DNA from: Bacteroidota bacterium
GTDB taxonomy: Bacteria; Bacteroidota; Ignavibacteria; UBA10030; UBA8401
Assembly: GCA_008933835.1 (NCBI GenBank)
Contig: WBUG01000020.1
Span: 1-48,261 of the forward strand
Direction: 5' to 3'
DNA length: 48,261 nucleotides
Within the stretch, counting starts at the first letter, position 1; each line of letters begins with the position of its first letter. Position numbers and translations under genes: made by a program. Positions 7,538 through 26,386 of this stretch are shown here, piece after piece. Under the pieces are notes generated by a model that did no database searches, was not told where the DNA came from, and worked only from the letters and a program-made list of their open reading frames with translations.

Positions 7538-7729
7538 CCCCTCCGCACCATAAATCGTACTTCGTTATCCGGAATCAAGGCATTTTTTGGGGGGAGCACA
7601 GTTGCATTCCGTTCGATGTTGGGTTACTTTCCCTTCGGACCATTCTCCCATGTTGGCAACACAGCGGACCATCCACAGACCGACCGATACTCCTCCTTCT
7701 TCGAATCCCCATCCCTACCAGGCACGGCC
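7538..7729 (+). other. Non-coding leader before the CheB-CheR gene
   Basis: No gene is supported here. An open frame runs through the stretch into the next gene, but its translation (poor composition, no domain) does not look coding. The -10/-35 elements are not obvious. Together with the repeat array this makes 515 bp between the tRNA and the next start codon. Confidence 0.5.
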
Positions 7730-10660
7730 ATGGCGAAACGCAGGACCACATCCCCGAAACGGCTTCCGGAATCCCCCGTCGTCATCGGCGTCGGCGCATC
7801 CGCCGGCGGGCTCGAGGCGCTGCAGGAGTTCCTCTCGCACGTCCCCGACGCCCTGCAGAACGTCTCCATCATCATCACACAGCATCTCAGTCCGTCGTAC
7901 AAGAGCATGCTCGTCCAGCTGCTGAGCCGTTCCACGAAACGGGAGGTGGTGGAGATCACGACGGACATGGCCATCGAACCGGACCTCGTCTACATCACGC
8001 CGCCGGACCATGAACTGGTGGTGAAGGACGGACGGCTGTACCTCAACAAGTCGACCCACGTCATCGGGCCGAAGCCGTCGGTGGACGCGTTCTTCACCTC
8101 GCTCGCGAGCGAACTGAAGAAGAACTGCATCGGCGTCATCCTCTCCGGCACCGGCAGCGACGGGGCGAACGGCATCCGCGCCATCAAGAAGGGGGGCGGT
8201 CTCACCGTGGTGCAGGAACCGCATACGGCGAAGTACGACGGCATGCCGATCTCCGCCATCCGCACCGAGGCGGTGGACCTGGTGCTCGCGCCGGAACGGA
8301 TGGGGGACGAGATCGCCACCTACCTCACGAATCCCTCCGCGCTGGCCCTGTCCGACGCCGCGCTGTTCCCCTCGCACGACGCGATGACCGACATCCTCAA
8401 CATGCTCTCCAAGCGGACCTCGACGGACTTCTCGCGGTACAAGCAGTCCACCATCGTGCGTCGGCTGGAGAAGCGGCTCTCGCTGCTCCACATCACCACG
8501 CTGGACGATTACGTGAAGTTCGTGAAGGAGAATCCGGCGGAACTGGACCAGCTCTTCCAGACGGTGCTCATCGGCGTGACGGAGTTCTTCCGGGACCCCG
8601 AGGCGTTCGCCATCCTGGAGAAGATGCTCGGCGAGGTCATCGCGAAGAAGGAGCCCAACGAACCGGTCCGCATCTGGGTGTGCGGCTGCGCCACGGGGGA
8701 GGAGGCGTACACCATCGCCATGGTCATCGCCGGCATCCTGAAGGAGCGCATCGGTGAGTACCATGTGCAGATCTTCGCCACGGACATCGACGAGAAGGCG
8801 CTCGACACGGCCCGCCGCGGCGTCTTCCCCGCCGCGTCGCTCGAACGGCTCCCGTCGCGCATCGTGAAATCGTTCTTCAAGAAGCAGTCCGAAGGCCAGT
8901 ACGAGATCTCGAAGAGCATCCGCTCGATGATCCTCTTCTCGAAGCACGACGTCACGGCGAACCCGCCGTTCATGAAACTGGACCTCGTGAGCTGCCGGAA
9001 CATGCTCATCTACCTGAACACGGACCTGCAGAAGTACATCCTCTCACTGTTCCACTACGCGCTCGCCATCGACGGGCTCCTCTTCCTCGGGAAGTCCGAG
9101 ACGGTGGGGCAGTACGGCGACCTCTTCGGCACGCTCGACGGCACCGCCAAGGTCTTCCGCCGCGCCGCGGGGGGACGCACCAAGGCGTTCGCCCTCTCGT
9201 ACTTCCAGCCGACCCGTTCGTACTCCGCCGACGCCGCCGCGATGCGGGACAAGGCGCGGATGAGCGTGGGCGAGATGGTGAAGGAGACACTCTTCAAGAC
9301 CTATGAGCACCCGTTCGTCATCATCAACGAAACGTTCGAGATCCAGGAGATCTACGGCGACGTGCGGCTCGTCCTGAACCTCGGCGAGGGGGTGGTCAAC
9401 ATCAACATCCTCCGGCTCATCGACAAGCAGCTGAACCTGGAACTGCACGCCATCCTCACGAAGGCGGTGAAGGACCGGGTGCCGACGAAGGGGAAGATCC
9501 GGTCGTTCGAGTTCATGGGGAAGCCGTACTTCGTGAAGATCGTCGTGAAGCCGCTCCTCTATACGCAGCAGAGCAGCGAACTCTTCATCGTCGTCTTCGA
9601 GTTCTACAACGGGGAGGAGGACGCGCTGCTCGTCCATCCCGCGGCGGGACAGGACGTCGATCCGCGCATCGAGGAACTGGAGAAGGAGCTGCGGGCGACG
9701 CGGGAGCATCTGCAGACCTACGTGGAGGAGCTCGAGACCACCAACGAGGAGCTGCAGTCGCTCAACGAAGAACTGCAGTCCACGAACGAGGAGCTCCAGT
9801 CCTCCAACGAGGAGCTCGAGACCAGCAACGAGGAGCTGCAGTCCACCAACGAGGAACTGCAGACCGCCTATATGGAGCTGAAGCAGCTGAACTCGCTCAT
9901 CTCCGCCAAGGACGAGAAGCTGAAGAAGTCCGAAGCCCACCTGCATTCCCTCATCAACAACATGCCGGAGGGGATGATCCTCCTCGGCACCGACCTGCGG
10001 GTGCTCATCTTCAACCGCTCGAGCGCCCGCATGTTCCGCGAGAACTTCGGGAAACAGGTCCGCGAAGGGACGAGCATCATGACGCTGATGCCGAAGGAAG
10101 CGGCGCCGCGCTGCTCCGGACATTTCGACGATGCGCTCGACGGCCGGCCCACGCTTGGCATCGTACTGGAAGCGGCGAACACTTCGGGAAAGAGGACCGT
10201 GCTGCGCACCAACATCATTCCGGTGGTGAACGACGACCGCCGGACCGTCTCCATCATCGTCCACTGCACCGACATGACGCAGCATGCGCAGGTCCATTCC
10301 AAGCTGGCGATGACGGAGCGGATGCTCGCCACGGTCTTCCGCACCGCGCCGTACGGCATCTGCCTCACGGACGCGAAGGGCATCTTCGTCGATTTCAACG
10401 ACGCGTACCGCCGGATGTACGGATTCAAGCGAGCGGAGCTGCTCGGGCAGCATTTCACCGTCGTGGTGCCGCCGAAGGACCGGAAACAGGCACGGGCGCT
10501 GCACGACGCCTTCATCGAGAAAGGGAAGGAACCGCCGGCGGAGTGGACGGTCCGCCGGAAGGACGGCCGCCTCAGCACGGTCCAGGTGACGGCGACCCTC
10601 CTGCGGAACGAGGAGGGGGCCCCGTTTAAACTCACCAGCGTCCATCCCGCCGACCGGTGA
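7730..10660 (+). CDS. CheB-CheR fusion protein with PAS domains (chemotaxis-type methylesterase/methyltransferase)
   Basis: The protein has 976 residues from the ATG at 7730, where the recognisable protein begins. Residues 15-200 are a CheB methylesterase domain with catalytic Ser24 (GASAGG), His52 (TQHLSP) and Asp144 (GTGSDG). Residues 220-460 are CheR: the N-terminal helical domain (SRYKQSTIVRRLEKRL), the SAM-binding motif VCGCATGEEAYT and SCRNMLIYL. A coiled coil of TNEELQS heptads follows (about 669-715), then two PAS domains. No kinase domain is present, but a histidine kinase follows 7 bp downstream. In many bacteria these parts are fused in one sensory protein, so the pair probably forms a split version. 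The signal sensed is unknown. Confidence 0.9.
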   Translation: MAKRRTTSPKRLPESPVVIGVGASAGGLEALQEFLSHVPDALQNVSIIITQHLSPSYKSMLVQLLSRSTKREVVEITTDMAIEPDLVYITPPDHELVVKDGRLYLNKSTHVIGPKPSVDAFFTSLASELKKNCIGVILSGTGSDGANGIRAIKKGGGLTVVQEPHTAKYDGMPISAIRTEAVDLVLAPERMGDEIATYLTNPSALALSDAALFPSHDAMTDILNMLSKRTSTDFSRYKQSTIVRRLEKRLSLLHITTLDDYVKFVKENPAELDQLFQTVLIGVTEFFRDPEAFAILEKMLGEVIAKKEPNEPVRIWVCGCATGEEAYTIAMVIAGILKERIGEYHVQIFATDIDEKALDTARRGVFPAASLERLPSRIVKSFFKKQSEGQYEISKSIRSMILFSKHDVTANPPFMKLDLVSCRNMLIYLNTDLQKYILSLFHYALAIDGLLFLGKSETVGQYGDLFGTLDGTAKVFRRAAGGRTKAFALSYFQPTRSYSADAAAMRDKARMSVGEMVKETLFKTYEHPFVIINETFEIQEIYGDVRLVLNLGEGVVNINILRLIDKQLNLELHAILTKAVKDRVPTKGKIRSFEFMGKPYFVKIVVKPLLYTQQSSELFIVVFEFYNGEEDALLVHPAAGQDVDPRIEELEKELRATREHLQTYVEELETTNEELQSLNEELQSTNEELQSSNEELETSNEELQSTNEELQTAYMELKQLNSLISAKDEKLKKSEAHLHSLINNMPEGMILLGTDLRVLIFNRSSARMFRENFGKQVREGTSIMTLMPKEAAPRCSGHFDDALDGRPTLGIVLEAANTSGKRTVLRTNIIPVVNDDRRTVSIIVHCTDMTQHAQVHSKLAMTERMLATVFRTAPYGICLTDAKGIFVDFNDAYRRMYGFKRAELLGQHFTVVVPPKDRKQARALHDAFIEKGKEPPAEWTVRRKDGRLSTVQVTATLLRNEEGAPFKLTSVHPADR
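9734..9859 (+). repeat. Six 21-bp coding repeats (coiled-coil heptads)
   Basis: Six in-frame 21-bp units encode variants of QSTNEEL. They form the coiled-coil linker between the CheR and PAS parts, a known feature of CheB-CheR fusion proteins. The nucleotide repeat follows from the protein heptad. Confidence 0.9.
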
Positions 10661-10667
10661 CCGCCGC

Positions 10668-12935
10668 ATGAACCGCATGAAGAAGACGACGAAACGGTCC
10701 AGCACTCACCCGGCCCCGCCGCCCGCCGACGAGCGCGAGCGCATCATCACCACCTTCGACCGGGTCCGAAAGAGCAAGGCGGCGCGCAGCATGGCCGAGC
10801 TCCACACCCGCGCACGAACGCTGCTGCTCCAACGCAACGGGAACGCGGGGCCGCTGCGCACCGAGATCGAAGAACTGCTCCATGAGCTCGAAGTGTATCA
10901 GGTGGAACTCGAGATCCAGCAGGAAGAGCTCGTCGAATCGCAGCGCAAGCTGGAGGAGACCTCCCGGCGTTACTATGCCCTGTACCATGACGCGCCCGTC
11001 GGGTATGTGACGCTGTCGAAGGACGGACGCATCCTGGAGGCCAATCGGGCGGCCGAGCGTCTTTTCAGCGGGCTCCGTCGTCCCCTCAACGGTTCGTTCT
11101 TCCTGCAGTTCCTGCCGCGGGAGTACCATACGGACTTCCTGAGCAAGGTCCGCCGTTTGTACGCCGGCGCCCCGACCGAGACGTGTGAGACCGTACTGGA
11201 TCCGGCCGACGGACAGCGCCGGTATCTGCTGCTGCACATGAACACCGTGGCTGGACATCCTTCCGAAGGACTGAACCACCGCATCGTCATCGAGGACATC
11301 TCCGCCCGGAAGGAGGCCGAGAGGCTCTACACGGCGTACCAGGCGCGGCTCGAAGAGGAGGTGGAACGGAAAACGAAGAAGGTCTCCGCGCAGAACCGTA
11401 CGCTGCAGCGGGAGGCGCAGAAGCGGAAGGAGCTCATCCGTGTACTGCAGGAATCGGAGCACAAGTACCGCTCGCTGTTCGAATCGTCCGCGGCGTGCTT
11501 CCTCATCACGGACCATGACGGACGCTGCCTCGACGCCAACCGCCCCGCGGTGAAGGCGCTCGGCCGCGCGAAGCGCCTGCTGAAGAACCTCACCCTCATG
11601 GACCTGGCCGTGGAGGAAGACCGGGAGACGGTCGGGGAGTTCTGGAGGGGATTTCCGCACCGGAAGAACGCTGAGGTCATGTTCCGCGCGGCGGTCGGCC
11701 GGCGAGCAGAGACGGTGTTCGAATGCCGCGCAGTGGCGGACGTTCTCCCCGGCATGCATCTCGTCATCCTCCACGACGTATCGGAACGCTCCCGTCTGCA
11801 GCAGGACCTGGAGGCGGAACGGATCCGGTTCCAGTCGGTCATCCGTGGAACGAGCATCGGGACGTGGGAATGGCACATCCCAACCGGCCGCACCATCTTT
11901 AACGAACGATGGGCGGAGATGCTCGGATATTCCCTCAGCGAGTTTCCGGAGCTCTCCATCGACCTGTGGAAGCGCCTCACCCACCCCGAGGACCTCGTCC
12001 GAAGCACCCGTCTGCTCGAGGAGCATTTCGCCGGCCGTTCCGAGTACTACGAAGCGGACATCCGGATGCGGCACAAAGCGGGTCACTGGGTGTGGATCCT
12101 CGACATCGGCCGCGTGACGACGCGGAACGCCGACGGCTCTCCATTGGTGATGCACGGGTTCCACCAGGACATCTCGGAGCGGAAGAAGAACGAAGAGGGG
12201 ATACGGAGGTCGAACGCCGACCTGGAAGAGCGCGTGCGGCAGCGCACCGCGTCCCTGCAGAAGGCGTACGACGAGCTCGAGTCGTTCAGCTACTCCGTGT
12301 CGCACGACCTGCGCGCCCCCATCCGCGCGATCGACGGATTCAGCGTGATGCTGCAGGAGCATCTCCAGCGGTACAACGACGATGAGACGCATCGGCTGTT
12401 GTCGGTCATCCGGCGGAGCACGTCCCGGATGGACCAGCTCATCAACGGTCTCCTCTCCATCACCCGTATCGGCACGCAGGAGATGCGGCCGCAGATCATC
12501 GACATGGAAGAGATGGTCCATGCGGTCATCATCGAGACAGTTCCGGAAGCGGTCCGTACGAGGATACGGCTCGTCGTTTCGCCTGTGCCACCGGTGAAGA
12601 CCGACGCGGTACTGCTGCGCCAGGTGTGGACCAACCTCATCTCGAACGCCGTAAAATATTCCTCCCACCAGCGGAACCCGTCCATCGAGATCTTCTCGAA
12701 GCAGACCCCTGCCGACGTCACGTACTATGTGCGGGACAACGGCGTCGGCTTCAAACAGGAGCATGCCGGGATCCTCTTCGCGCTCTTCCACCGGCTGCAC
12801 ACCGCGGAAGAGTTCGAAGGGATCGGCATCGGCCTCTCGACGGTGAAACGCATCATCACCAGACTCGGCGGCAGCATCGGTGCGGAAGGTGAAGTGGGGA
12901 AGGGGGCGACGTTCTGGTTCACCCTCCCGCGTTAA
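10668..12935 (+). CDS. Multi-PAS sensor histidine kinase
   Basis: This 755-residue protein has no signal peptide or clear membrane segment, so it is likely cytoplasmic. The N-terminus has the helical motif HELEVYQVELEIQQEEL, often seen before PAS domains. PAS domains follow at about 100-210, 265-375 and 385-510; the last has the PAS_3 pattern (GTWEWHIPTGRTIFNERW...GYSLSEFPEL). A coiled coil leads to HisKA with SVSHDLRAPIRAIDG, phospho-acceptor His546, and a HATPase_c domain with N box NLISNAVKYS (Asn660) and GIGIGLSTVKRII. The architecture resembles bacteriophytochrome-type kinases without the chromophore domain. It is in an operon with the CheB-CheR gene. No receiver-domain partner lies in the window. 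Confidence 0.9.
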   Translation: MNRMKKTTKRSSTHPAPPPADERERIITTFDRVRKSKAARSMAELHTRARTLLLQRNGNAGPLRTEIEELLHELEVYQVELEIQQEELVESQRKLEETSRRYYALYHDAPVGYVTLSKDGRILEANRAAERLFSGLRRPLNGSFFLQFLPREYHTDFLSKVRRLYAGAPTETCETVLDPADGQRRYLLLHMNTVAGHPSEGLNHRIVIEDISARKEAERLYTAYQARLEEEVERKTKKVSAQNRTLQREAQKRKELIRVLQESEHKYRSLFESSAACFLITDHDGRCLDANRPAVKALGRAKRLLKNLTLMDLAVEEDRETVGEFWRGFPHRKNAEVMFRAAVGRRAETVFECRAVADVLPGMHLVILHDVSERSRLQQDLEAERIRFQSVIRGTSIGTWEWHIPTGRTIFNERWAEMLGYSLSEFPELSIDLWKRLTHPEDLVRSTRLLEEHFAGRSEYYEADIRMRHKAGHWVWILDIGRVTTRNADGSPLVMHGFHQDISERKKNEEGIRRSNADLEERVRQRTASLQKAYDELESFSYSVSHDLRAPIRAIDGFSVMLQEHLQRYNDDETHRLLSVIRRSTSRMDQLINGLLSITRIGTQEMRPQIIDMEEMVHAVIIETVPEAVRTRIRLVVSPVPPVKTDAVLLRQVWTNLISNAVKYSSHQRNPSIEIFSKQTPADVTYYVRDNGVGFKQEHAGILFALFHRLHTAEEFEGIGIGLSTVKRIITRLGGSIGAEGEVGKGATFWFTLPR

Positions 12936-13086: not shown

Positions 13087-13812
13087 ATGTTCGCACCGGT
13101 CGAAAATAGAGAGATACTGAGCAAGAAGATCGCCGGGTCGATCGAAGAGGCGATTCACAGCCGGAAGATCACTCGCGGCAACAAGCTCCCCTCCGAAGCG
13201 GAACTCGCAGCGCAGTTCGGCGTCAGCCGGACCGCCATCCGCGAAGCGCTTCGAATGGTGAGCGCCAAGGGACTCATCCGCATCGAGAAGGGGCGCGGCA
13301 TCTTCGTCCAGGACCTCTCGGCAACGACCGTTTCCGATCCGCTCCATCAATACCTGAAATTCAACATCGAACGTGACTATGCGCTCGATGTCATCCACGC
13401 CCGGCAGATCATCGAACCCTCCATCGCCGCCTTCGCCGCGACCCACCGTTCCAATGAGGATGTCGAGAAGCTTCAGGCGAACATCCGCCAGCTCGTCGGT
13501 TACGACGGTGAGTTCGACGGTCTGGCGAAGCTCGACATGGATTTCCATCTTGCCATCGCCGCCGCGTCGCACAACCAGGTGATGCCGCTCATCCTCGATC
13601 CCATCCATCGGCTCATGCCGGAGATCAAGAAGTCGGTCTACGCCACGAACGACCACGCGAAGGAATCAGCGGTGGAATGGCACGGGAAGATCGTCGAACG
13701 CATCATCGCGAGGGATGTGGAGGGGGCGAGGACGATGATGCAGAAGCACCTGGAGATCGCCGAGGAACATATCCGCGTCATGCTGCGGGCTCAGTCCTCA
13801 GAACCGGCGTGA
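13087..13812 (+). CDS. FadR-subfamily GntR transcriptional regulator
   Basis: This 241-residue protein has an N-terminal winged helix (about residues 8-77: KLPSEAELAAQFGVSRTAIREALRMVSAKGLI, wing RIEKGRGIFV). Its C-terminal all-helical FCD domain (about 95-230) carries the ligand/metal residues Asp150, His154, His199 and His221. The family commonly represses sugar-acid catabolism and responds to a uronate-derived intermediate such as KDG or DEH. The gene has its own promoter and heads the polyuronide locus, and a perfect inverted repeat lies 29 bp after its stop. It is therefore the likely pathway-specific repressor. The start codon sits inside the palindrome GAACATGTTC (13083-13092). Confidence 0.9.
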   Translation: MFAPVENREILSKKIAGSIEEAIHSRKITRGNKLPSEAELAAQFGVSRTAIREALRMVSAKGLIRIEKGRGIFVQDLSATTVSDPLHQYLKFNIERDYALDVIHARQIIEPSIAAFAATHRSNEDVEKLQANIRQLVGYDGEFDGLAKLDMDFHLAIAAASHNQVMPLILDPIHRLMPEIKKSVYATNDHAKESAVEWHGKIVERIIARDVEGARTMMQKHLEIAEEHIRVMLRAQSSEPA

Positions 13813-13857: not shown

Positions 13858-14092
13858 TCCGAATTGACACGATGCGGCCCCGCTCAGGAGCCATCAGATG
13901 AACCGGCAGCAACGGTCCACGCCGGTCCCGCAACCGGCAGCGGTGCTGAGATTCCGTCAGCGCCAGGTGCAGCAGTCAGAGCGATTCCCGGTCCCTCCGG
14001 AAACCACCGCCGCCGTCGTTCCTCTCGTCCGTTCCCTCCCTCTTGTGCTCCCGTTCCCGACCGCTCTTCGTCAACATCCGAGACCGTCCATC
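13858..14092 (+). other. Long leader of the TonB-receptor gene
   Basis: These 235 bp hold no recognised gene. TTGACA occurs at 13864-13869 without a matching -10. An ATG at 13898 preceded by AGGAG (13886-13890) opens a frame that continues into the receptor gene, but its 65 residues are low-complexity (Pro, Arg, Gln, Val) and precede an obvious signal peptide. It may be an untranslated leader or a translated leader segment. Confidence 0.4.
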
Positions 14093-16927
14093 ATGAAAAG
14101 AATCGCAGCGCTCCTCCTGTTCGGCGCGGTGGTGCTCTCCGCCCAGAGCTCCGGCAAATTGTCCGGAACCGTCACCGACCGCCGCACGGGTGATGCACTC
14201 CCGGGCGTCAACGTCATCGTGAAAGGGAGCCGTCTCGGCGCCGTCACCGGCGTCGACGGCGCATACTTCATCCTGAACGTACCGCCGGGCGAATACTCGG
14301 TCTCCGCCTCCATCGTCGGCTTCGGCACCGTGACCAAACAGTCGGTCATCGTGAACCTCAACCGGACGACCGAAGTGAACTTCGCGCTCGACGAAACGGC
14401 GGTGCAGGAGAAGGAGGTGGTGGTCACCGCGGAACGTCCGGACGTACAGAAGGAGAAGACCTCCACCAGCGACATCCGCCGCGGGGACGAGATCATCGCC
14501 ATCCCGGGCACGCGGGACCTGGCGAGCGTCATCGCCCTCTCCAGCGACGTGTCGGACAACCACTTCCGCGGAGGCCGTGAAGGGGAGGAGCTGTACCTGC
14601 TGCAGGGGATGGGCATCGTCAATCCGCTGGACAACACCACGTCGTTCGCCCCCATCATGAGCGCAGTGGAGGAGGTGGAGGTCATCACGAGCGGGTTCAG
14701 CGCGCAGTACGGCAACGCCCAGTCCGGCGTCGTCAACATCACCATGCGAGAAGGACGGAGCGACAAGTGGACCGCACGGTTCGAAACGCAGGCGCGTCTG
14801 CCCGGCCGGAAGCACTTCGGTCCGAGCGTGTGGGACCCCGCCGGTCAGCCGTACCTCACCATGCTCGACACGTGGGAGAAGTGGATGGCGAACAACCCGA
14901 ACAGCACCACTCCCGCATCGTTCTTCGCCACCATCGGCAACGGATTCGATTCGCGGTACGGGAAGGACGATACGACCCTTTCGCAGATCGCCTGGACCCT
15001 CTATCGTCTGCAGGCGAAGCGGCAGTACGGGCTGGACTACGATGACAAGGTGGACGCCTGGGGCGAGGCGACCGTGGGCGGCCCCCTCTCCGAGAACATG
15101 CGGCTCTTCCTCGCGATGCGGACGGAGAACGAGTGGAGCTTCCTCCCGGCCGCCGAACCGAACCGCTCGCGCACCGTGATGGGGAACGTGGTGTACGACT
15201 TCCGGAACGGGCTCAACGTTCGGCTGAGCGGCGCCTATAAGAACGAGGCGCTCTCCGTCTTCCGCTCCACCCGCACCAACGGATTCTACTCCTGGACGTG
15301 GGACCAGGACCTGGCCCTCGGCCAGCAGCGCACGAACAACTACCAGTACGGGCTCCGGGCCACCTACGCGCCGAGCAGCGAGACCTTCTACGAACTGAAG
15401 CTGAACCTGCTCCGTAACGACCAGCAGGACGGCGCCCCCGCCATCGACCCGGCCGGGTACGCCGGGGACGTCTTCTGGTCCGTCTACTCCAGCTCCAGCG
15501 CACCGGACAACTTCTACTACGGGAACCTGTACGACACCTTCCGCGACGAGAAGACCCGCACGGTCTCGCTCGACGGCAACGTGACCAGCCAGGTGACTCC
15601 GGCGCACATGCTCGTGGCGGGGGTGCAGGCCAACTGGTTCGACGTGGACGTGAACAACGTCCGCTCCGTCAAGTCCGCTACCAGCATGAAGCGCGAGCAG
15701 TACCGCGCGAAACCGTTCGAGTACGGCCTCTACCTCTCCGACAAGATGGAGTTCGAAGGGATGATCGCGAACCTCGGGCTCCGGCTTGACATCTGGGACC
15801 AGAACGTGACCTACTACGCCGACCAGTTCTCGCCGTACCGGTACTTCGTCGACGACAGTTCGTACACCTACGACATGACCCGCGCACTGAAGGACGAGAC
15901 GCCGACCATCGGACGGCTGCAGCCCCGCCTCGGCATCTCGTTCCCGGTCTCGGAGAACACCGTCTTCCACGTCAACTACGGCACCAACGTCCAGCGTCCG
16001 CCCCTCAACCAGACCGTCTCGCAGCAGACGCCGAAGTCGGGCTTCTCCATGATGATCCTCGGCAATCCGCGTCTCCGTCCGCAGGTGACGAACAGCTACG
16101 ACATCGGCGTGATGCAGGCGCTGACGGACGGATTCACGCTGGACATCAGCGGCTACTATAAGGACGTGAAGGACCTCATCCAGCAGGCGTTCTACTTCGA
16201 CCAGGACGGATACTACTATTCCTCCTTCGCCAACCGCGACTACGCGGACATCCGCGGGTTCAAGATCGGGCTCGCGAAACGGAGCGGCATGCTCACCGGC
16301 ACCGTCAACTACACGTACGGTGTGGCGACCGGCAAGAACGCGTCGCCGTTCAACGAATCGTCCAAGTTCTACGAGAACGATCCCGCCGCGACGCAGCTGC
16401 CGACGCCGAAGGACATCCTGATGGACTTCGACCGGACGCACAACCTCGTCGTCACCGCGGTGCTCTCCGTCGGCGAAGAGGAGGGGGTGGAGGTGTTCGG
16501 CATGCGTCCCTTCGCCGACGTGAAGGTCGCCGCATCGTCGTTCGCCCGGAGCGGCCGTCCCTACACGTTCGACGACCAGGGGCTCGGTGCGCTCTACAAC
16601 CGCCGTTCGCCCGCCGAGTACAGCACCAAGCTGAAGGTGACGAAGGAGTTCCGGAAGCTCATCGGTTCCCGTCTCTCGTTCTACGTGGAGGTGAACAACC
16701 TCTTCGACCAGAAGATCCTCTCGTACTCGGCGGTCTTCGCGAACGCGCGCGACAACTCCAGCGGCACCATCACGGAGAACAAGAACATCGAGAAGTACGT
16801 CGCCGATCCGGCCTCCATCCGGTACACCGAGGACCTCAACCATCTCGGGTTCGTCATCGACCAGTCCTTCATGATCTACGACAACGCTCCCCGCAGCATC
16901 AGCGTGGGGATGGTGGTGTCGTTCTAA
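14093..16927 (+). CDS. TonB-dependent receptor with CarboxypepD_reg-like domain
   Basis: The protein has 944 residues from the ATG at 14093, chosen because it begins the signal peptide (MKRIAALLLFGAVVLSAQ). Residues about 20-100 form a carboxypeptidase-regulatory-like beta sandwich (GKLSGTVTDRRTGDALPGVNV). A plug domain follows (RDLASVIAL...VEEVEVITSGFSAQYGNAQSGVVNI), then a 22-strand-type barrel ending in the terminal aromatic SF. It should import oligouronides across the outer membrane with TonB energy. It resembles SusC-type receptors, but no SusD gene follows; instead a large secreted protein and two barrels are encoded. A better ribosome-binding site precedes the in-frame ATG at 13898, so an N-terminal extension cannot be excluded. 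Confidence 0.88.
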   Translation: MKRIAALLLFGAVVLSAQSSGKLSGTVTDRRTGDALPGVNVIVKGSRLGAVTGVDGAYFILNVPPGEYSVSASIVGFGTVTKQSVIVNLNRTTEVNFALDETAVQEKEVVVTAERPDVQKEKTSTSDIRRGDEIIAIPGTRDLASVIALSSDVSDNHFRGGREGEELYLLQGMGIVNPLDNTTSFAPIMSAVEEVEVITSGFSAQYGNAQSGVVNITMREGRSDKWTARFETQARLPGRKHFGPSVWDPAGQPYLTMLDTWEKWMANNPNSTTPASFFATIGNGFDSRYGKDDTTLSQIAWTLYRLQAKRQYGLDYDDKVDAWGEATVGGPLSENMRLFLAMRTENEWSFLPAAEPNRSRTVMGNVVYDFRNGLNVRLSGAYKNEALSVFRSTRTNGFYSWTWDQDLALGQQRTNNYQYGLRATYAPSSETFYELKLNLLRNDQQDGAPAIDPAGYAGDVFWSVYSSSSAPDNFYYGNLYDTFRDEKTRTVSLDGNVTSQVTPAHMLVAGVQANWFDVDVNNVRSVKSATSMKREQYRAKPFEYGLYLSDKMEFEGMIANLGLRLDIWDQNVTYYADQFSPYRYFVDDSSYTYDMTRALKDETPTIGRLQPRLGISFPVSENTVFHVNYGTNVQRPPLNQTVSQQTPKSGFSMMILGNPRLRPQVTNSYDIGVMQALTDGFTLDISGYYKDVKDLIQQAFYFDQDGYYYSSFANRDYADIRGFKIGLAKRSGMLTGTVNYTYGVATGKNASPFNESSKFYENDPAATQLPTPKDILMDFDRTHNLVVTAVLSVGEEEGVEVFGMRPFADVKVAASSFARSGRPYTFDDQGLGALYNRRSPAEYSTKLKVTKEFRKLIGSRLSFYVEVNNLFDQKILSYSAVFANARDNSSGTITENKNIEKYVADPASIRYTEDLNHLGFVIDQSFMIYDNAPRSISVGMVVSF

Positions 16928-16940
16928 CGGAAAGCGCACC

Positions 16941-19124
16941 ATGAACCGAACCATCGTCCTCCTCGCCCTGCTGCTCTTCGCGGCGGCTCTTCCCGCCCAG
17001 CAGCGGAAGTTCGACGTGCACCGCCGCGGCATGCTCCATCAGACGGTGTTCAACACCGGTGAGCTCGGCCGGGCGTATGACCAGGGGACCGGCGGCATCT
17101 CCGCCGGTATGCCGTCGCTCGAATGGCCGGCCCGCTCCGCCATCATCGTCGACTCGAAGCCGTACACCGGTCAGCACAACTCGTTCGGCGGCGGCGTGCA
17201 GCTCAGCATGAACCGCCGCGACACCACACGCATGATGGTGTACTGCGGCGGCGTCTCGGCGCTCCCCATCCTCGGCGTCTCGTCCTTCCCGCTCTCCCAG
17301 ACGCGGCGCGAGAACTTCCCGCTCCTCTCCAACGGCCAGCTGAATCCGACGTACGATCCGAATGAAGCGGAGGAGATCATCACCGCCTCCTGGGCCACCT
17401 CCGCGGGGGTCACCATCACCCGCACCAGCCGCGCATGGAGCATGCCCGATTACGACGACTTCATCATCTACGAATACGAGATGACGAACACCGGGGACAC
17501 GGACGGCAACCCCGCCACTCCCGCGCGGCAGGACACCCTCACCGAGATGGTCGTGAGCTTCTCGCAGGGCTTCGCCCCCGGCAAGACCGGACACGAGCGG
17601 AAATACAACCGCTGGAACGGCAGCGACTTCCAGCAGACCGATGTGTATGCGCGCTTCGACCGGCGGCGATGGCTCAACTACGCGATGAGTGACGACGGTC
17701 TGCCCGAAACGCAGTACTTCACCGAATGGGCGCAGACCGGACTCAACGGCGGCGGTCTTCAGGCTCCCATGGCGGTCGGCTACACCGTGCTCTATTATGA
17801 CACCGCGAGGCTCGCGCGCCGGTCCGAGACGGTCCTCTCCGCATCGAGCGTCGGTCAGAACTCGCCGGTGTGGGACGCGAACGACCATCTCAAACAGCCG
17901 TACCTCAACCGGCTCGAGACCTCGCTGTGGAGCGAATCGAAGTTCGTCGGGAACATGAACATCGCGGCATGGCCCCGGAGCGGCAACAGCGTCTACGGCG
18001 CAACGTTCGGTCCGGACTGGCAGGGACGCGTCTCCTTCAACGTCCGGCAGAGCTGGATCTTCGGCGTGGGCCGGCAGATCGTCTTCGGTCCGTACATCCT
18101 CCGGCCCGGCGAGAGCATCCGCTTCTCCCTGGCCGAGGTCGCCGGGTACGGGGCCGCATCCCTGGCGGAGACGCAGGCCGGCGTGACGGACGAAGGAGGC
18201 AGCTGCGGTCAGGCGTGCAACGAGTCCGCGAGCGCCGCGGCGTTCAATCCGGTCCCGAACTACACGCAGACGGTGACGTACGGATTGGACAACAAGGTGC
18301 ACGGCAGCACGTACCTTTCCACCTATCCGCTTCCGCCGTACGTCAACTCCGGCGTCGTCACACTCCGCGACGTGACCGACCGCGCCATCCAGGCGTACAC
18401 CGGCGCCGCGTCCGTGGTGGACTACGACAGTTCGCAGTACTGGCCGGAACGCTCGGCGGACCGCGGAGCGTACCGGCTTCCGCAGATCGTACCGGCGCCG
18501 AAGATCACGGTCGAGAACACCGCGCTCGCCCAGAACCGCATCACCTGGCTGTCGGCCGTCGAGGGATTCACCGCGCCGCGCCTTGCCGCTCCCTTCTCCC
18601 ACTATCGGTTGCTCAAGTCGGCGCATCCGCTCGGACCGTGGCAGATGCTGGACAGCGTGGGGCTGGCCGATCCGCGGTTCTTCGCCGGTGGTCAATACAC
18701 CGTCATCGACACGGCAACGACGGTGCTGGAGTCGCACTACTACGCCGTCGTCTCGGTGGACCAGGCCGGCAACCGCAGCGGCATGACGAATCTGACGCTG
18801 CACGAGACACAGCTCGGCGGAACGGAGGACCTGCAGAAGGTGGTGGTGGTCCCGAACCCGTACATTGTCCGTTCCGGTTTCTCGGGTGCCGGTGACGTCG
18901 ACAACCGCATCGGGTTCTTCAACCTGCCGCGGCGCTGCACCATCCGGATCATCTCCTACAGCGGCCAGCTGGTCGAGACCATCGACCACGACACCGAACT
19001 CTATTCGCACGAATACCTGAAGACCACCCGCAACAACCAGGTCATCGCTTCCGGCGTCTACTTCTTCGTCGTCGAAACGCCGGACGGAAAACGGACGCAC
19101 GGCAAGTTCGTCGTCATTCAATGA
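16941..19124 (+). CDS. Large secreted protein of unknown function, possible TonB-receptor partner
   Basis: This 727-residue protein has a signal peptide (MNRTIVLLALLLFAAALPAQQ). The body is beta-rich with many aromatic and polar residues, and I recognise no catalytic family. A cysteine pair in GGSCGQACNESA could form a disulfide. The C-terminal roughly 90 residues (VVVVPNPYIVRSGFS...ASGVYFFVVETPDGKRTHGKFVVIQ) look like a FlgD-like/T9SS-type terminal beta domain without the NPFNPST motif. It lies 13 bp after the receptor gene and overlaps the PorV-like gene by an ATGA junction. The position matches that of SusD in Bacteroidetes loci, so a surface glycan-binding role is suggested by context only. 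Confidence 0.7.
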   Translation: MNRTIVLLALLLFAAALPAQQRKFDVHRRGMLHQTVFNTGELGRAYDQGTGGISAGMPSLEWPARSAIIVDSKPYTGQHNSFGGGVQLSMNRRDTTRMMVYCGGVSALPILGVSSFPLSQTRRENFPLLSNGQLNPTYDPNEAEEIITASWATSAGVTITRTSRAWSMPDYDDFIIYEYEMTNTGDTDGNPATPARQDTLTEMVVSFSQGFAPGKTGHERKYNRWNGSDFQQTDVYARFDRRRWLNYAMSDDGLPETQYFTEWAQTGLNGGGLQAPMAVGYTVLYYDTARLARRSETVLSASSVGQNSPVWDANDHLKQPYLNRLETSLWSESKFVGNMNIAAWPRSGNSVYGATFGPDWQGRVSFNVRQSWIFGVGRQIVFGPYILRPGESIRFSLAEVAGYGAASLAETQAGVTDEGGSCGQACNESASAAAFNPVPNYTQTVTYGLDNKVHGSTYLSTYPLPPYVNSGVVTLRDVTDRAIQAYTGAASVVDYDSSQYWPERSADRGAYRLPQIVPAPKITVENTALAQNRITWLSAVEGFTAPRLAAPFSHYRLLKSAHPLGPWQMLDSVGLADPRFFAGGQYTVIDTATTVLESHYYAVVSVDQAGNRSGMTNLTLHETQLGGTEDLQKVVVVPNPYIVRSGFSGAGDVDNRIGFFNLPRRCTIRIISYSGQLVETIDHDTELYSHEYLKTTRNNQVIASGVYFFVVETPDGKRTHGKFVVIQ

Positions 19125-20191
19125 GCAGAGACCGTATGCATATGCACAGACCATCATTCCTGACCTACCTGCTGCTGGCAGCGCTCGTCGCGGGCGTCCT
19201 GCCCCTCCGGGCGCAGAAGGTCGGCACCAGCTCGCTCCAATTCCTGAAAGTGATGCCGACGGCGCGCGCCGCCGCGATGGGTGACGCCTACGCGACCCTC
19301 GCGGCCGGTCCGGACGCGATGTACTGGAACCCGGCCGGCATCGCCGGCGAGACCCGCACCGCGTTCTCCGCCTCGATGGTGCTCTGGCTCTTCGACACGC
19401 GGCAGAACATGCTCGCCGGCACCGTACCGCTGGGGGAGTGGGGCACGGCGGGCGTGCAGCTGCAGTACGTCGATTACGGGACCATGGACGTCACGCGCAC
19501 CGACCGGCTCGATTTCATCGGCTCCAGTCCGGACCTCCGCTACAATCCCGGATACACCGGAGAGACCTTCTCGCCGACCGCCATGGTCATCGGCGTCTCT
19601 TACGCCAACCGGATGACCGACCGCTTCTCCGCCGGACTCAGTATGAAGTACATCCATGAGTCGCTCTGGAATTCCCCCACGGTCGTCCTTACGAAGCCGC
19701 TCACGGGCGAGACCGAAGAGGTGAACACCTACACGCGGCTCTTCCTGTTCGACTTCGGGATGCTCTATAACACCGGATACCGTTCGGTGAAGATCGGCGT
19801 CTCCATCCAGAACTTCGGTTCGCAGGTGAAGTTCGCCCGCGAATGGTTCCCCGCGCCTCTCGCGTTCCGGTTCGGCACCGCCGGCGATCTCATCGGTCCG
19901 GACGCGCTGTTCGCCGCATCGGACGCCCACCGCATCACCGCCGCGTTCGACATCTTCCAGCCCAACGATTACGCGCAGCAGTTCCACGGCGGCGTCGAGT
20001 ACGCGTTCGCCGAGGCGCTCTTCCTGCGGGCCGGATACAAGTTCAACTATGACAACGACGCCCTCACCGCCGGTGCGGGCGTCCGGCAGGAGATCTCCGG
20101 GATGCCGTTCAACGTCGATTACAGTTACGGGGCGATGGGCGACTATCTTCCCGCCGTTCACCGCATCACCGTCGGAGCACAGCTGCCATGA
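19121..20191 (+). CDS. PorV/PorQ-family outer-membrane protein
   Basis: This 356-residue protein carries the family signature after its signal peptide: FLKVMPTARAAAMGDAYATL, then GPDAMYWNPAGIAG. The rest alternates in the manner of a FadL-like 14-strand barrel. PorV-type proteins act with the type IX secretion system, where they hold substrates at the outer membrane for sorting-domain cleavage; others of the family have unknown roles. Start and stop overlap both neighbours by 4 bp (ATGA), so it is translationally coupled inside the receptor operon. Whether it serves T9SS export in general or only this locus is unknown. The signal peptide may begin at either of two Met residues near the start. 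Confidence 0.82.
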   Translation: MSRDRMHMHRPSFLTYLLLAALVAGVLPLRAQKVGTSSLQFLKVMPTARAAAMGDAYATLAAGPDAMYWNPAGIAGETRTAFSASMVLWLFDTRQNMLAGTVPLGEWGTAGVQLQYVDYGTMDVTRTDRLDFIGSSPDLRYNPGYTGETFSPTAMVIGVSYANRMTDRFSAGLSMKYIHESLWNSPTVVLTKPLTGETEEVNTYTRLFLFDFGMLYNTGYRSVKIGVSIQNFGSQVKFAREWFPAPLAFRFGTAGDLIGPDALFAASDAHRITAAFDIFQPNDYAQQFHGGVEYAFAEALFLRAGYKFNYDNDALTAGAGVRQEISGMPFNVDYSYGAMGDYLPAVHRITVGAQLP

Positions 20192-21708
20192 ACACCATCA
20201 GGACCATCCGCCGCACGGCGCTGCTGCTGTGCACCGCCGCCACACTCGCGCATCCGCAGGGGACCGCCGAACCGCTCCTGTTCCAGGGGACCGACGACCG
20301 GCAGACCGCGAACGTGCGTGCGCTCGGCATGGGCGGCACCGTCACCGCCGCCGGCACCGGCGCCTCCGCGCTCTTCTCCAATCCGGCCGCCCTCGCCGGC
20401 ATCGGCGGAGCGGAGATACGCTTCGCCGGCACGTACGCATCGTTCTCGCGGCAGCAGGCACAGCAGTGGGTGCCGAACCGGATCTATACCGGACTCAGTC
20501 TGATGATGGAAGACATGTGGGGGAACATCAAGGCCCCCACCGTCAATGACACGCTCCCTGTGACCGATCCGTGGGAACAGCCGCAGAGACCGTTCGACGC
20601 TTTCGGACCGGACTGGTCCCGCAGCGGCAGTTCCTCCGCACCGCTGGCGTTCTCCGCGGCGATGCCCGTCCCGCTCGGCGATGTCACCCTCGTCGTCGGC
20701 GCCGGCGTGACGATGACGTCCGACCTCGACCACTATTTCCAGAACAATAACGTCACGGACCCGCTGCTCGGCCAGTACCGTCCGAGCCCGCGGCCGGAGA
20801 TGGTTCCGGGAGACACGCTGCGCGTCCGTTGGTATCAGTACAGCCGCAGCCGCGACGGGAGGATCTGGGGCGTCACTCCGGCGGTCGCGTTCACGGCCGG
20901 TGCATTGACGCTGGGCGCATCCGCCACCTACTATACCGGTGAGTCGGACGACCGGGAACAGCGCACCGACCGCGGATTCCTCACGTTCCTGTACAACCGC
21001 TTCAAACTGCAGGACACGGTCCACCTCTCGTACACCCGTCAAGGGACATCGACCTTCACCGGATTCGGCGGAGCCGTCGGAATCCGATACGAACAGCCGG
21101 TCGTCACGCTGGCCGCATCGGCGGAACTGCCGTACACGCTGACCAGGGAGTATTCCGGACAGTTCACGCTGCGGCAGACCACGCTCGTGCAGCGGGCGGC
21201 GTACACGCCGGGTTTGACGGCCGATTCGGTCAACGTCACCGCCATGAACGTTGAGGAGGGGAAGACGGAGAAGATCTCGTTCCCGTTCTCCTATGCCCTG
21301 GGCGTCGTGCTCCGGCCGTTCAACGACTGGTCGTTCGCGTTCGACTATGAAGTACGCAATCTGAGCGGTGTCACCCGCGAACTTGCCTCGACCGCCGGCG
21401 TCACGGAGTGGGTGTCGCGCGGCTCCTTCCGGCTGGGGGCAGAGTACCGCTGGACGCCGCAGTTCGCGCTCCGCGCCGGTTACCGTGAAGTGCCGCAGAC
21501 CTTCTCGCCGGAAGGTTCTGCCATCATCGGCGAGCCGGCCGTTCTCAGCGTCACATCGCTCGGAGCCGGCTGGGAGCTCTTCGGTGCCTCGCTCGATGTG
21601 GCGTACCTGTACGGCTCGCTCCGGTACTCGGACATGTGGCAGTCCAACGTGAACAAGAATTCGACGTACACCCACCGCATCACGGCGGAGCTGGGGTACC
21701 GCTTCTGA
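20188..21708 (+). CDS. FadL/PorV-like outer-membrane transport protein
   Basis: This 506-residue protein with a signal peptide has a pattern close to the preceding protein: ANVRALGMGGTVTAAGTGASALFSNPAALAGIGG, typical of the OmpP1/FadL and PorV superfamily, where a Gly/Ala/Asn-Pro N-terminal hatch precedes a barrel. It ends in GYRF, a terminal aromatic. FadL members move hydrophobic or aromatic compounds; in this locus a role in oligomer uptake or in surface assembly is possible but unproven. It overlaps the upstream gene by 4 bp and is followed by a 43-bp gap before the SDR gene. Confidence 0.75.
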   Translation: MNTIRTIRRTALLLCTAATLAHPQGTAEPLLFQGTDDRQTANVRALGMGGTVTAAGTGASALFSNPAALAGIGGAEIRFAGTYASFSRQQAQQWVPNRIYTGLSLMMEDMWGNIKAPTVNDTLPVTDPWEQPQRPFDAFGPDWSRSGSSSAPLAFSAAMPVPLGDVTLVVGAGVTMTSDLDHYFQNNNVTDPLLGQYRPSPRPEMVPGDTLRVRWYQYSRSRDGRIWGVTPAVAFTAGALTLGASATYYTGESDDREQRTDRGFLTFLYNRFKLQDTVHLSYTRQGTSTFTGFGGAVGIRYEQPVVTLAASAELPYTLTREYSGQFTLRQTTLVQRAAYTPGLTADSVNVTAMNVEEGKTEKISFPFSYALGVVLRPFNDWSFAFDYEVRNLSGVTRELASTAGVTEWVSRGSFRLGAEYRWTPQFALRAGYREVPQTFSPEGSAIIGEPAVLSVTSLGAGWELFGASLDVAYLYGSLRYSDMWQSNVNKNSTYTHRITAELGYRF

Positions 21709-22518: not shown

Positions 22519-24699
22519 ATGTCCCGTCACATCCTGACCATCCTGCTGCTCTTGACCATCGCCGCCGCGGCGCCGGGCCAGCCGCGTCCCTCCATGCTGC
22601 TGTCGGAGGGCGACGTCCGGCTCATGCGCGCCTCCCTCGGCACCGCGCCGCTGTTCGACGCGGCCGTGGCGGACGCGAAGCGGCGCGTGGATGCCGCCAT
22701 CGCCGCACCGATGGACGTTCCCGTGCCCGCGGACGCCGGCGGATACACGCACGAACGGCACAAGCAGAACTACACCGAGATGCAGCTCGCCGGCGTGCTG
22801 TTCCAGCTCACACGGGAACGTCGCTACGCGGATTTCGTCCGGACAATGCTGCTGAAGTATGCCGCGCTCTATCCGTCGCTCGGCCGTCATCCCTCCGCCG
22901 CGGGAGAGGCGCACGGGCGGCTCTTCTGGCAGTCGCTCAACGAGACCGTCTGGCTCGTCAACGTCGCGCAGGCGTACGACTGTGTGTACGATGCGGTGCC
23001 GGCGGCGGACCGAACGGTCATCGAACGCGACCTGCTCCGTCCCATGGTGAAGTTCTTCACGGTCGAACAGTCCTCGGTGCTCAACCGCATCCACAATCAC
23101 GGCTCCTGGATGGCGGCGTCGGTGGGGATGGCCGGCTTCGCCCTGCGCGACACCGCCATGGTCTCCGCGGCGCTGTACGGCACCGGCGACGCCCCGGGCG
23201 GGTACCTGCGGCTGCTGGACGGGCTCTTCTCGCCGGACGGTTACTACACCGAAGGGGCGTACTACATCCGGTACGCCATCATGCCCTTCTTCGTCTTCGC
23301 GAAGGCGGTGGACAACAACCGTCCCGGTCTGCGCATCTTCGCCTACCGCGACAGCGTCCTGAAGCGCGCCTTCAACGCGATGCTGCAGCTGACGTACACC
23401 ACCGGACAGTTCCTGCCGTTCAATGACGCACTGAAAGAGAAGTCGTACCGTTCCCCCGAGGTCATCACGGCGCTGAACATCGCCTACGCCACCTTCGGCG
23501 CCGAGCCGTCGCTCCTCACGGTGGCGAAGGAACAGGGGAGCGTCACGCTCACCGGCGGAGGATGCCTGGCGGCGAAAGGGCTCGCGGCCACGTCACTGCT
23601 CCCTCCGTTCCCGTACCGCAGTCTGGAGCTCCGCGACGGTCCGCAGGGTGAACGGGGAGGCATCGGCATCCTGCGGCACGGCGGCAACGACGACCAGCTC
23701 CTGCTGCTGATGAAGTACACCGGACACGGACTCTCCCACGGACATTACGACAAGCTCTCGCTGATGATGTACGACCAGCAGCGCGAACAGCTGCAGGATT
23801 ACGGCGCGGCCCGTTTCATCAACGTCGAACCGAAGTACGGAGGCCGTTACCTGCCGGAGACCAAATCGTTCGCGATGCAGACCATCGCCCACAACACGGT
23901 GACGGTGGACGAGCGCTCCCATTTCGGCGGCGACATCGCCCTCTCCGAACGCTTCTCGGGCACGCGGCACTTCTTCGACGCCGGTACCGGCACGACCGCC
24001 GCCATGAGCGCCCGGTGCAACGACGCCGTGCCCGGCGTCCGGATGCAGCGCACCGTCGTGACCATCGCCGATCCGTCGCTCCCGAAGCCGCTGGCGGTGG
24101 ACCTCTTCCGCGTGGTGTCGGACCGCGAGCATACGTACGACCTTCCGTTCTATTATATCGGTCAGTTCCTGGCGATGAACCAGCGTCTCACCCAGTACAC
24201 GGAACGGCAGGAGGCGCTCGGTACGGCGCCCGGATACCGCCATCTGTGGAAGGAGGCCGAAGGACGCGCGCAGGGGATGGTGCAGTTCACCTGGCTCTCC
24301 GGCAACCGCTACTATTCCGTGAGCAGCGCGGCCGATACCGGCACCACCGTCTGCCGCGTCCGCATCGGCGCGAACGACCCGAACATCAACCTGCGCCGCG
24401 AACCGGCGGTCATCCTCCGCACGCGCGGAACGTCGGCCCTCTTCGCCTCGGTCATCGAACCGCACGGACTGTGGGACGGCACCATCGAGATCTCGCGCGA
24501 CGCGGCGAGCGGCATCGCCGGCGTGACGGTGCTCGCCTCCACGGACGAAGGGAGCGTTGTGCGCCTCGACCGGAAGAACGGGAAGGGCTGGACGGTGATG
24601 GTGGCGAACGGTGCGGCCGATGCGGGCCGTCAGCGGAGCGTGACCGCCGGAGGCACGACGTACCGGTGGACAGGGAACTATGCAGTGACCGTGAACTAA
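22519..24699 (+). CDS. PL17-type oligoalginate lyase (heparinase II/III fold)
   Basis: This 726-residue exported protein has a signal peptide ending near AAAAPGQ. The N-terminal alginate-lyase-like (alpha/alpha) domain contains NHGSW (Asn193, His194) and GYYTEGAYYIRY (Tyr248/Tyr249). The C-terminal heparinase II/III-like beta domain contains GLSHGHYDKLSLMMYD (His407, His409). These match the Asn/His/Tyr/His catalytic pattern known for PL17 exolyases such as Alg17C, which release unsaturated monomers from alginate oligosaccharides. It has no T9SS domain, so it should act in the periplasm on imported oligomers. KdgF follows 15 bp downstream and acts on its product. Length is typical. Confidence 0.9.
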   Translation: MSRHILTILLLLTIAAAAPGQPRPSMLLSEGDVRLMRASLGTAPLFDAAVADAKRRVDAAIAAPMDVPVPADAGGYTHERHKQNYTEMQLAGVLFQLTRERRYADFVRTMLLKYAALYPSLGRHPSAAGEAHGRLFWQSLNETVWLVNVAQAYDCVYDAVPAADRTVIERDLLRPMVKFFTVEQSSVLNRIHNHGSWMAASVGMAGFALRDTAMVSAALYGTGDAPGGYLRLLDGLFSPDGYYTEGAYYIRYAIMPFFVFAKAVDNNRPGLRIFAYRDSVLKRAFNAMLQLTYTTGQFLPFNDALKEKSYRSPEVITALNIAYATFGAEPSLLTVAKEQGSVTLTGGGCLAAKGLAATSLLPPFPYRSLELRDGPQGERGGIGILRHGGNDDQLLLLMKYTGHGLSHGHYDKLSLMMYDQQREQLQDYGAARFINVEPKYGGRYLPETKSFAMQTIAHNTVTVDERSHFGGDIALSERFSGTRHFFDAGTGTTAAMSARCNDAVPGVRMQRTVVTIADPSLPKPLAVDLFRVVSDREHTYDLPFYYIGQFLAMNQRLTQYTERQEALGTAPGYRHLWKEAEGRAQGMVQFTWLSGNRYYSVSSAADTGTTVCRVRIGANDPNINLRREPAVILRTRGTSALFASVIEPHGLWDGTIEISRDAASGIAGVTVLASTDEGSVVRLDRKNGKGWTVMVANGAADAGRQRSVTAGGTTYRWTGNYAVTVN

Positions 24700-25093: not shown

Positions 25094-26386
25094 ATGAGGA
25101 AGGTCAAAGGACTGCGCTGGTTCGTCATCTCGCTCATCGCGGCGGCCACCATCATCAACTACATCGACCGGACGTCGCTCGCCGTGATGTGGCCCGACAT
25201 TTCCAAGGAGCTCGACCTGTCGAAGGACCAGTACGCCACCATCGTCTCGGCGTTCATGATCGCCTACGCGCTCGGTCAGGCGCTCTCCGGTCGTTTCTTC
25301 GATTGGGTGGGGACGCGCGTCGGGTTCATCGCCTCCATCCTCGTCTGGTCCGCCGCCTGCGCGCTGCACGGCGCGGCACGGAGCATCGTCTCCTTCTCGG
25401 CGTTCCGTGCGCTGCTCGGCGTGAGCGAGGCGGGCAACTGGCCCGGCGCCACGAAAGCGAACGCGGAATGGTTCCCGGTGAACGAACGCGCCCTCGCGCA
25501 GGGGATCTTCAACGCGGGCGCGTCGCTCGGCGCGGTCATCTCGGCGCCGCTCATCGCCTTCCTCTACCTTCTCCTCGGCTGGAAAGCGACCTTCCTCGTC
25601 ATCGGCGCGCTCGGTCTGGTGTGGATCGTTCCGTGGATGATCGTCTACAAGTCCACGCCGGACAAGCATCCGTGGATCACGGACGAGGAGCGCGAGTACA
25701 TCCTGCACGGTCCTTCGACCGCCGCCGCGCCCTCCGCGGAGCGGACGATGACGTGGGGCGAGGCGCTCGGACGCCGGCAGAGCTGGTCCGTCATCGTCTC
25801 GCGATTCTTCCTGGACCCCATCTGGTGGCTCTTCGTGAACTGGCTTCCGATCTACCTGGTGGAATCGTTCGGATTCGACGTGAAGCAGATCGGCATGTTC
25901 GCCTGGGTGCCGTACCTCGGCGCGGCGGTCGGCAGCGTCGCCGGCGGCTGGTATTCGGGCCACAAGATCCGGCAGGGCTGGAGCGTGGACAAGGCGCGGA
26001 AACGGGCCGTCATCATCGGCGCCGTCATCACCTTCCCGGCCTTCATCGGTGCAGCGTTCGCTTCGTCACCCCTGACGGCGGTGACCGTGATGGCGGCGGT
26101 GCTCGGCGGCTATCAGATGATGATGAACAATATCCAGACCCTGCCCAGCGATTTCTACTCCGGCCGTTCGGTCGGCACGGTGGCGGGCATCGGCGGCATG
26201 AGCGCCATCATCGGCGTGCTCGTCTTCAGCACCTGGCTCATCCCGTTCCTCAGCCGCATCAGCTACGTGCCGGTCTTCCTGATGGGTGCAGCGCTCGTCC
26301 CGCTCGGCGTGGCGGCGGTGTACTACTTCGGCGGCACCATCGCGCGCGTGGACATCGGTCCGGCGCCGGAAGGGAAGCGCGGATGA
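25094..26386 (+). CDS. MFS hexuronate/DEH transporter (ACS family, ExuT-like)
   Basis: This 430-residue protein has about 12 membrane segments. The N-terminus LRWFVISLIAAATIINYIDR is the hallmark of the anion:cation symporter family (ExuT, GudP, DgoT), and the loop 2-3 motif is GRFFDWVGTRVGF. FRALLGVSEAGNWPGATKA and the WFPVNERALAQGIFNAG block are typical of hexuronate carriers. It should import unsaturated monouronates or DEH across the inner membrane by proton symport. It is coupled to the downstream KduD-type SDR by an ATGA overlap. Substrate is inferred from the locus. Confidence 0.9.
   Translation: MRKVKGLRWFVISLIAAATIINYIDRTSLAVMWPDISKELDLSKDQYATIVSAFMIAYALGQALSGRFFDWVGTRVGFIASILVWSAACALHGAARSIVSFSAFRALLGVSEAGNWPGATKANAEWFPVNERALAQGIFNAGASLGAVISAPLIAFLYLLLGWKATFLVIGALGLVWIVPWMIVYKSTPDKHPWITDEEREYILHGPSTAAAPSAERTMTWGEALGRRQSWSVIVSRFFLDPIWWLFVNWLPIYLVESFGFDVKQIGMFAWVPYLGAAVGSVAGGWYSGHKIRQGWSVDKARKRAVIIGAVITFPAFIGAAFASSPLTAVTVMAAVLGGYQMMMNNIQTLPSDFYSGRSVGTVAGIGGMSAIIGVLVFSTWLIPFLSRISYVPVFLMGAALVPLGVAAVYYFGGTIARVDIGPAPEGKRG

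Follow-up and report, generated by a model that had tools for sequence, protein, structure and literature searches.

A secreted protein of 727 residues, encoded on the forward strand at positions 16941 to 19124 of the 48,261-nucleotide window (the whole stretch of DNA analysed here, from contig WBUG01000020.1 of a Bacteroidota bacterium), belongs to a family whose genes lie between a gene for a TonB-dependent receptor (TBDR) and one for a PorV-family outer-membrane barrel, and this triad is conserved across genomes of the phylum. Because the protein, hereafter P0001, recurs between a TBDR and a PorV of its own, we suspect that it is the receptor's surface partner and that the downstream barrel anchors it at the outer membrane, a reading to which we assign a probability of roughly 60%. 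An initial annotation of this DNA had placed the protein in the "SusD position" as a surface partner of the receptor. The position was borne out, P0001 is not a SusD homologue, and the consistency of the gene pairing argues for a partnership that is itself putative. That annotation overlooked that PorV is as much a member of the unit as the other two genes, and that the C-terminal tail of P0001 belongs to a distinct class.

The reading frame opens with an ATG at 16941, closes with the stop codon at 19122-19124 and begins 13 nt after the end of the receptor frame at 16927, confirming both the 727-residue product and the 13-bp spacing reported earlier. Its N-terminus, MNRTIVLLALLLFAAALPAQ followed by Q, resembles by eye a signal peptidase I signal, and the probable Sec signal peptide read from the translation (16941..17000, + strand) would be cleaved before Gln21; the Gln21-Arg22 pair is invariant across the five sequences of alignment A1. 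The Cys of a lipobox is absent, with no Cys within residues 1-40 and the first at residue 102. At the other end of the gene, the PorV-family frame, if it starts at the earliest ATG (19121), shares 4 nt with the end of P0001, as ATGA. This overlap is likely rather than certain because two further in-frame ATGs lie just downstream of 19121. Thus, the translational link to a PorV-like gene proposed earlier holds as an overlap or abutment, its exact extent depending on the PorV start.

The setting of P0001 is an alginate/uronate utilisation locus, all the listed genes of which lie on the + strand. A GntR/FCD regulator (13087..13812) precedes the receptor (13898..16927, likely true start 14093), which carries CarboxypepD_reg and a TonB barrel (PF00593); on this receptor the SusC/RagA model TIGR04056 reaches 50.6 bits, over residues 87-191 only and below its cut-off of 368. 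After P0001 and its PorV-family partner (19121..20191) come a second, FadL/PorV-like barrel of 506 residues (20188..21708), an oligoalginate-lyase-like enzyme (22519..24699) with Hepar_II_III_C and Alginate_lyase matches that scores 672 bits against an NCBIfam cut-off of 1400, and an MFS sugar-acid transporter (25094..26386). SDR enzymes, many lyases bearing tails of the type IX secretion system (T9SS) and G8-domain proteins also lie downstream. Between 27138 and 47776 of the window, the alginate enzymes are accompanied by G8-domain proteins and several chondroitinase-B-like lyases carrying ordinary T9SS tails, a mixture that suggests that more than one uronate substrate is handled. Just ahead of the utilisation locus, at 7466-12935, are genes for a CheB-CheR-PAS hybrid protein and then a PAS histidine kinase.

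Searching the host genome with P0001 recovered ten further members of the family, and all 11 genes are downstream of a TBDR gene and upstream of a PorV-family gene. In one of these loci (L061:9329-13067) a 205-aa lipoprotein-like gene separates the surface protein from its PorV. Overall, strict triads were found 101 times in the 115 loci that we collected, 98 of which had been fetched for a relative of P0001. Within the taxonomic family, 17 of 23 loci (20 regions around the best matches and three loci from public metagenome-assembled genomes) are strict triads; the other six consist of a tandem pair (L009) and five truncations at contig ends, two of them (L011 and L085) apparently on one and the same contig, and in each of the five the readable half is in order. 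Close relatives of P0001 occur in 38 of the 395 genomes that represent the phylum. Outside the family, 38 of 39 close-relative loci are strict triads, and in the exception (L145) the contig ends inside the protein; these are 39 of the 41 places listed, a probable duplicate of L010 (G117:C7) and a short G087 fragment having been left aside. A long type of the protein, whose open frames span some 920-1,380 aa in the loci inspected, is present in 142 of the 395 genomes. Among 36 of its listed places, picked by hand to span families, 35 are strict triads and one is ordered TBDR-PorV-protein. Consistent pairing with TonB receptors, the check that the initial annotation had proposed, is therefore what these loci display, and homologues situated mostly away from TBDRs, which it had named as evidence against its reading, were looked for and none was seen among the loci examined.

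The host genome also contains breaks in the pattern. At one locus (L064) the order is protein-PorV-TBDR, and another (L062:9431-15052, minus strand) has no such protein, the TBDR being followed directly by PorV; a 573-aa gene of SusD size, with a lipobox-like start, lies just upstream of that TBDR. The surroundings of the triads are varied. One (L053, on host contig C17) has a LacI regulator and a pair of alpha-amylase (GH13) genes for neighbours, a second (L057) is next to GH3, GH94 and GH2 genes and a LacI regulator, and a third (L056) is next to GH3/GH2 genes and an MFS transporter, with an RpiR regulator beside L058 and peptidases beside L060. The L053 locus is a candidate starch system laid out as TBDR, surface protein and PorV, in a genome in which SusD was not found.

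That absence is shared by most of the family, since SusD was missing from 21 of its 22 genomes, the host included, and a search of the host genome with PF07980 returned zero matches. The T9SS translocon, by comparison, is widespread, with SprA_N detected in 21 of the 22, again including the host. The presence of SprA, the absence of SusD and the sugar enzymes and regulators beside triads together make us regard the triad as a unit for nutrient uptake, and such three-gene units seem to be common. We considered whether the long type replaces SusD at the level of whole genomes and rejected the idea: across the 395 genomes the two often coexist (both in 73, the long type alone in 69, SusD alone in 139 and neither in 114; p 0.53). 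Given this lack of anti-correlation in the phylum at large, and despite SusD being found in only 1 of the 22 family genomes, any claim of replacement is confined to the locus.

The bulk of P0001 is a body (residues 21-521; 17001..18503, +) without a known domain, followed by a probable Fn3/Ig-like domain (residues 522-606; 18504..18758, +) proposed from predicted strands, matches to Fn3-type folds and a low-confidence model with a pLDDT of 52. Pfam gave zero matches to the protein at E<=0.1, and the NCBIfam hits touched its tail only (T9SS_PorZ at 26.7 bits, cut-off 260, and the type A model TIGR04183 at 20.8 bits, cut-off 23). Neither the domains of Pfam and NCBIfam nor the solved structures searched cover the body. 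The description of P0001 as an orphan lacking any known domain is accurate for the curated libraries, and the label needs correcting because its relatives are many. With tails removed and deep alignments on both sides, alginate-type bodies align with those of the "mid" type at an hhalign E of 1.4e-43 over 498 columns and with those of the long type at 4.1e-18 over 331 columns, showing the body of P0001 to be homologous to both; an earlier comparison of short and long bodies built on few sequences had returned tail similarity only, and the relation emerged with the deeper alignments. Structure prediction was less informative. The AlphaFold2 model of the whole protein has a pLDDT of 40 and that of its last 223 residues one of 52, and Foldseek paired the latter with generic Fn3/Ig domains at a TM of about 0.3, with PorZ at rank 34. 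This weak model and its rankings were kept out of the evidence on the tail class. Homology to SusD was rejected, as neither SusD_RagB nor a related Pfam model matched P0001 or 16 relatives at E<=0.1.

A body with no assigned family, in a locus rich in T9SS-tailed lyases, invites the suggestion that P0001 acts outside the cell as an enzyme of a family not yet described, such as a uronate lyase or an esterase, that it uses its PorV for export only and that it sits in a receptor operon incidentally. We regard this as quite improbable. A confident match to a known enzyme family, also named in advance as evidence against surface partnership, was sought in Pfam and NCBIfam for 17 close and eight long members, and tail matches were all that was found. 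Homologous bodies recur beside very different enzymes and always adjoin a TBDR. Moreover, the T9SS-tailed lyases of the locus carry ordinary tails of the PNPFN type and have no PorV of their own.

The tails of the triad proteins form a class of their own and are not the usual sorting tail. In P0001 the domain occupies residues 627-727 (18819..19121, +) and reads VVPNPY...CTIRI...ASGVY...GKFVVI, in keeping with a general pattern for PorV-paired tails of VVPNPY...CTIRI...VASGVY...GKFAVIK, as opposed to the PNPFNPST... of ordinary tails. PF18962 detects 132 sorting tails in the host genome; when places were compared, none of the 11 triad tails was among them and, by hand, none of the 132 was found directly before a PorV gene. 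Over a wider set of 177 distinct tails (182 before duplicates were removed), the motif PNPF[NR][PGS] is present in 0 of 66 PorV-adjacent tails and in 77 of 111 others. In a tree of 176 of these, one tail shorter than 95 aa having been left out, a single branch with a support of 58 divides paired from other tails. The class changes once on this tree, against a mean of 54 after shuffling, and none of 500 shuffles gives so few changes. For this count two tails had been relabelled by hand as PorV-paired: that of L061, where the small lipoprotein gene intervenes, and that of L009, whose PorV is cut off by the contig end. Without the relabelling the number of changes is 3 instead of 1. At L009 (5734-10160) the surface protein is duplicated in tandem, and the two copies are flanked by a single TBDR and a single PorV; the copy beside PorV has a paired tail and the outer copy an ordinary PNPFN-type tail, which makes a natural tail swap.

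The solved tails nearest to the paired class are those of PorZ and PorU. When solved structures were searched with a profile built from the 11 paired tails, PorZ (4.9e-5) came first, then PorU (0.014) and FlgD (0.039), whereas a profile of 11 ordinary tails found other sorting domains instead. Text in PMC11285876 describes an extra beta-hairpin after strand 5 that is common to the PorU and PorZ tails. Among the tails that could be scored, the stretch between strands 5 and 6 is at least 11 residues long in 49 of 53 paired and 12 of 91 other tails, with 32 of the 176 (15 paired and 17 other) unscorable. Each of these similarities is weak when taken individually. As for the standard models, TIGR04183, which P0001 narrowly fails to reach, matches 16 of 17 relatives at E<=0.01; PF18962 has no match in P0001 and matches 11 of the 17 at E<=0.1; and PF13585 (CHU_C) matches 14 of the 17 weakly at E<=0.1. 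A type B tail was rejected, since TIGR04131 has no match over its cut-off in the host genome and none at a triad. The tail that the earlier description likened to those of FlgD and the T9SS is of a distinct class nearest PorZ and PorU, with FlgD close behind, rather than the usual sorting tail.

The partner of P0001 is placed in the PorV family by a score of 207 bits to PorV_fam (NF033709, cut-off 90) and by its position in the PorV tree. The host genome has 17 PorV-family matches over this cut-off, 11 of them in triads, and the six others include those at L064, L062 and L059. The last has the top score (293 bits) and lies between two T9SS-tailed genes, the preceding one of which we read from its sequence as PorU-like. 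In a tree built from 108 PorV proteins, of which 100 come from triads and the other eight from the host genome only, branching follows the type of surface protein and not the species, with 45 of 45 alginate-type PorVs in one starred clade that spans classes of the phylum. The surface protein and its PorV are thus co-inherited. For the 11 host triads, distances between tail and PorV correlate with an r of 0.56, those between PorV and TBDR with 0.76 and those between body and TBDR with 0.89. The tail-PorV correlation being no higher than those of the other pairs, this mirror-tree comparison shows co-inheritance rather than contact.

The same correlations bear on the alternative of a pure secretion or adhesion unit, in which an adhesin or matrix protein travels with its own shuttle, like type B cargo with SprF, and the receptor is co-regulated and makes no contact. 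Type B tails and SprF provide known examples of cognate cargo and shuttle genes (sections of PMC12618676), so the idea has a precedent, and we consider it unlikely rather than far-fetched. It leaves the near-invariant third gene, that of the TBDR, unexplained, and in the host genome it is between the TBDR and the body that divergence is most closely tracked. A different proposal takes the barrel as its starting point. The PorV-family barrel is weakly similar to OMPP1/FadL and the next gene encodes a second FadL-like barrel, such that the former could be a FadL-like channel for product diffusion, gated or plugged by P0001, with the TBDR serving a separate route. This strikes us as very improbable, as the barrel scores more than twice the PorV_fam cut-off and goes together with the T9SS tail class of the paired protein. 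The second barrel itself reaches 48 bits to PorV_fam, below the cut-off of 90, and 34.8 bits to Toluene_X, with a weak similarity to BamG (44.5 bits, cut-off 250); as a frequent fourth gene, it recurs after PorV in most alginate-type loci.

We return to P0001 as a putative partner of the receptor, for which several known systems offer points of comparison. As in the SusC-SusD (RagA-RagB) systems, a polysaccharide locus has a TBDR gene and, directly behind it, one for a comparably sized secreted surface protein. Unlike SusD, however, P0001 has no SusD/RagB similarity or lipobox and is predicted, at low confidence, to be all-beta; the TBDR falls below the SusC/RagA cut-off and a PorV barrel is added. 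P0001 would therefore work in the manner of the SusC-SusD pair without being a SusD homologue, its anchor being a barrel and not a lipid. Our source on SusCD in this comparison of TBDR lids is PMC11658791. That the partner of a TBDR need not be SusD is illustrated by BtuB-BtuG (PMC10404256), in which a lipoprotein on the cell surface, BtuG, serves vitamin B12; P0001 instead has a T9SS tail and a PorV. With PorU:PorV and PorZ:PorQ the likeness lies in a tailed surface protein, an adjacent PorV/PorQ-family gene and the closest solved tails, although retention by the barrel is here putative, and the PorU-like gene that we read before PorV at L059 extends the parallel to the host genome. P0001 differs from PorZ in its score far below the T9SS_PorZ cut-off, its link to a TBDR and its many copies per genome. 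Type B cargo likewise has its gene followed by that of a cognate outer-membrane barrel, the dedicated PorP/SprF shuttles being established in the relevant sections of PMC12618676 and documented further in part of PMC9143113, but the tail of P0001 is not of type B and its barrel is of the PorV family.

The closest printed parallel is the alginate locus of Rhodothermus marinus, given in part of PMC9530828 in the order tonB-hypA-hypB-hypC. There, hypA (2,181 nt) is annotated "T9SS type A sorting", hypB (1,056 nt) "PorV/PorQ family" and hypC is 1,398 nt long. Judged by printed order, sizes and annotation alone, the gene order is the same as ours and the sizes are similar, and the second barrel at 20188-21708 corresponds by position to hypC. 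In the relevant portions of that article the hyp genes are reported as hypothetical, and neither a function nor a partnership nor a broader pattern is proposed for them; SusD and SusC are not mentioned anywhere in its text. A description of TBDR, protein and PorV as an uptake unit did not turn up in searches of open-licence papers.

How might the triad operate? Judging from its N-terminus, P0001 would be exported by Sec and cleaved by signal peptidase I. Its C-terminal domain may then direct it to the T9SS for passage through SprA, a translocon that is present in the host and that it would presumably use. A dedicated PorV paralogue would next collect the protein by its tail and retain it uncleaved, as the tail class and the gene pairing suggest, by analogy with PorV-PorU and PorQ-PorZ in Porphyromonas gingivalis, where portions of PMC5562754 describe the PorU and PorZ tails as uncleaved, with PorV and PorQ, respectively, retaining the two proteins on the outside of the cell. 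Displayed on or beside the TBDR, the body could bind substrate as SusD or BtuG does for its receptor, the substrate probably being alginate or other uronate oligosaccharides. From these considerations we infer that P0001 is exported by the T9SS, is retained uncleaved by PorV, contacts the TBDR and binds substrate.

One generalisation, which we put forward tentatively and at somewhat less than even odds, is that a TonB uptake machine common in the Bacteroidota unites a receptor, an unlipidated and uncleaved T9SS lid and a private PorV in one three-part complex. According to this view, PorV would serve generally as an anchor for surface proteins, with one round of duplication and specialisation for each nutrient system. 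If this interpretation is correct, much of the Bacteroidota would rely on neither SusD nor lipoproteins for surface capture in TonB-dependent uptake, and the many PorV paralogues would gain a role. It would also contradict the rule, as printed in sections of PMC12618676, that a single PorV shuttle serves every type A tail. Genes that are now called hypothetical would then become readable as uptake systems.
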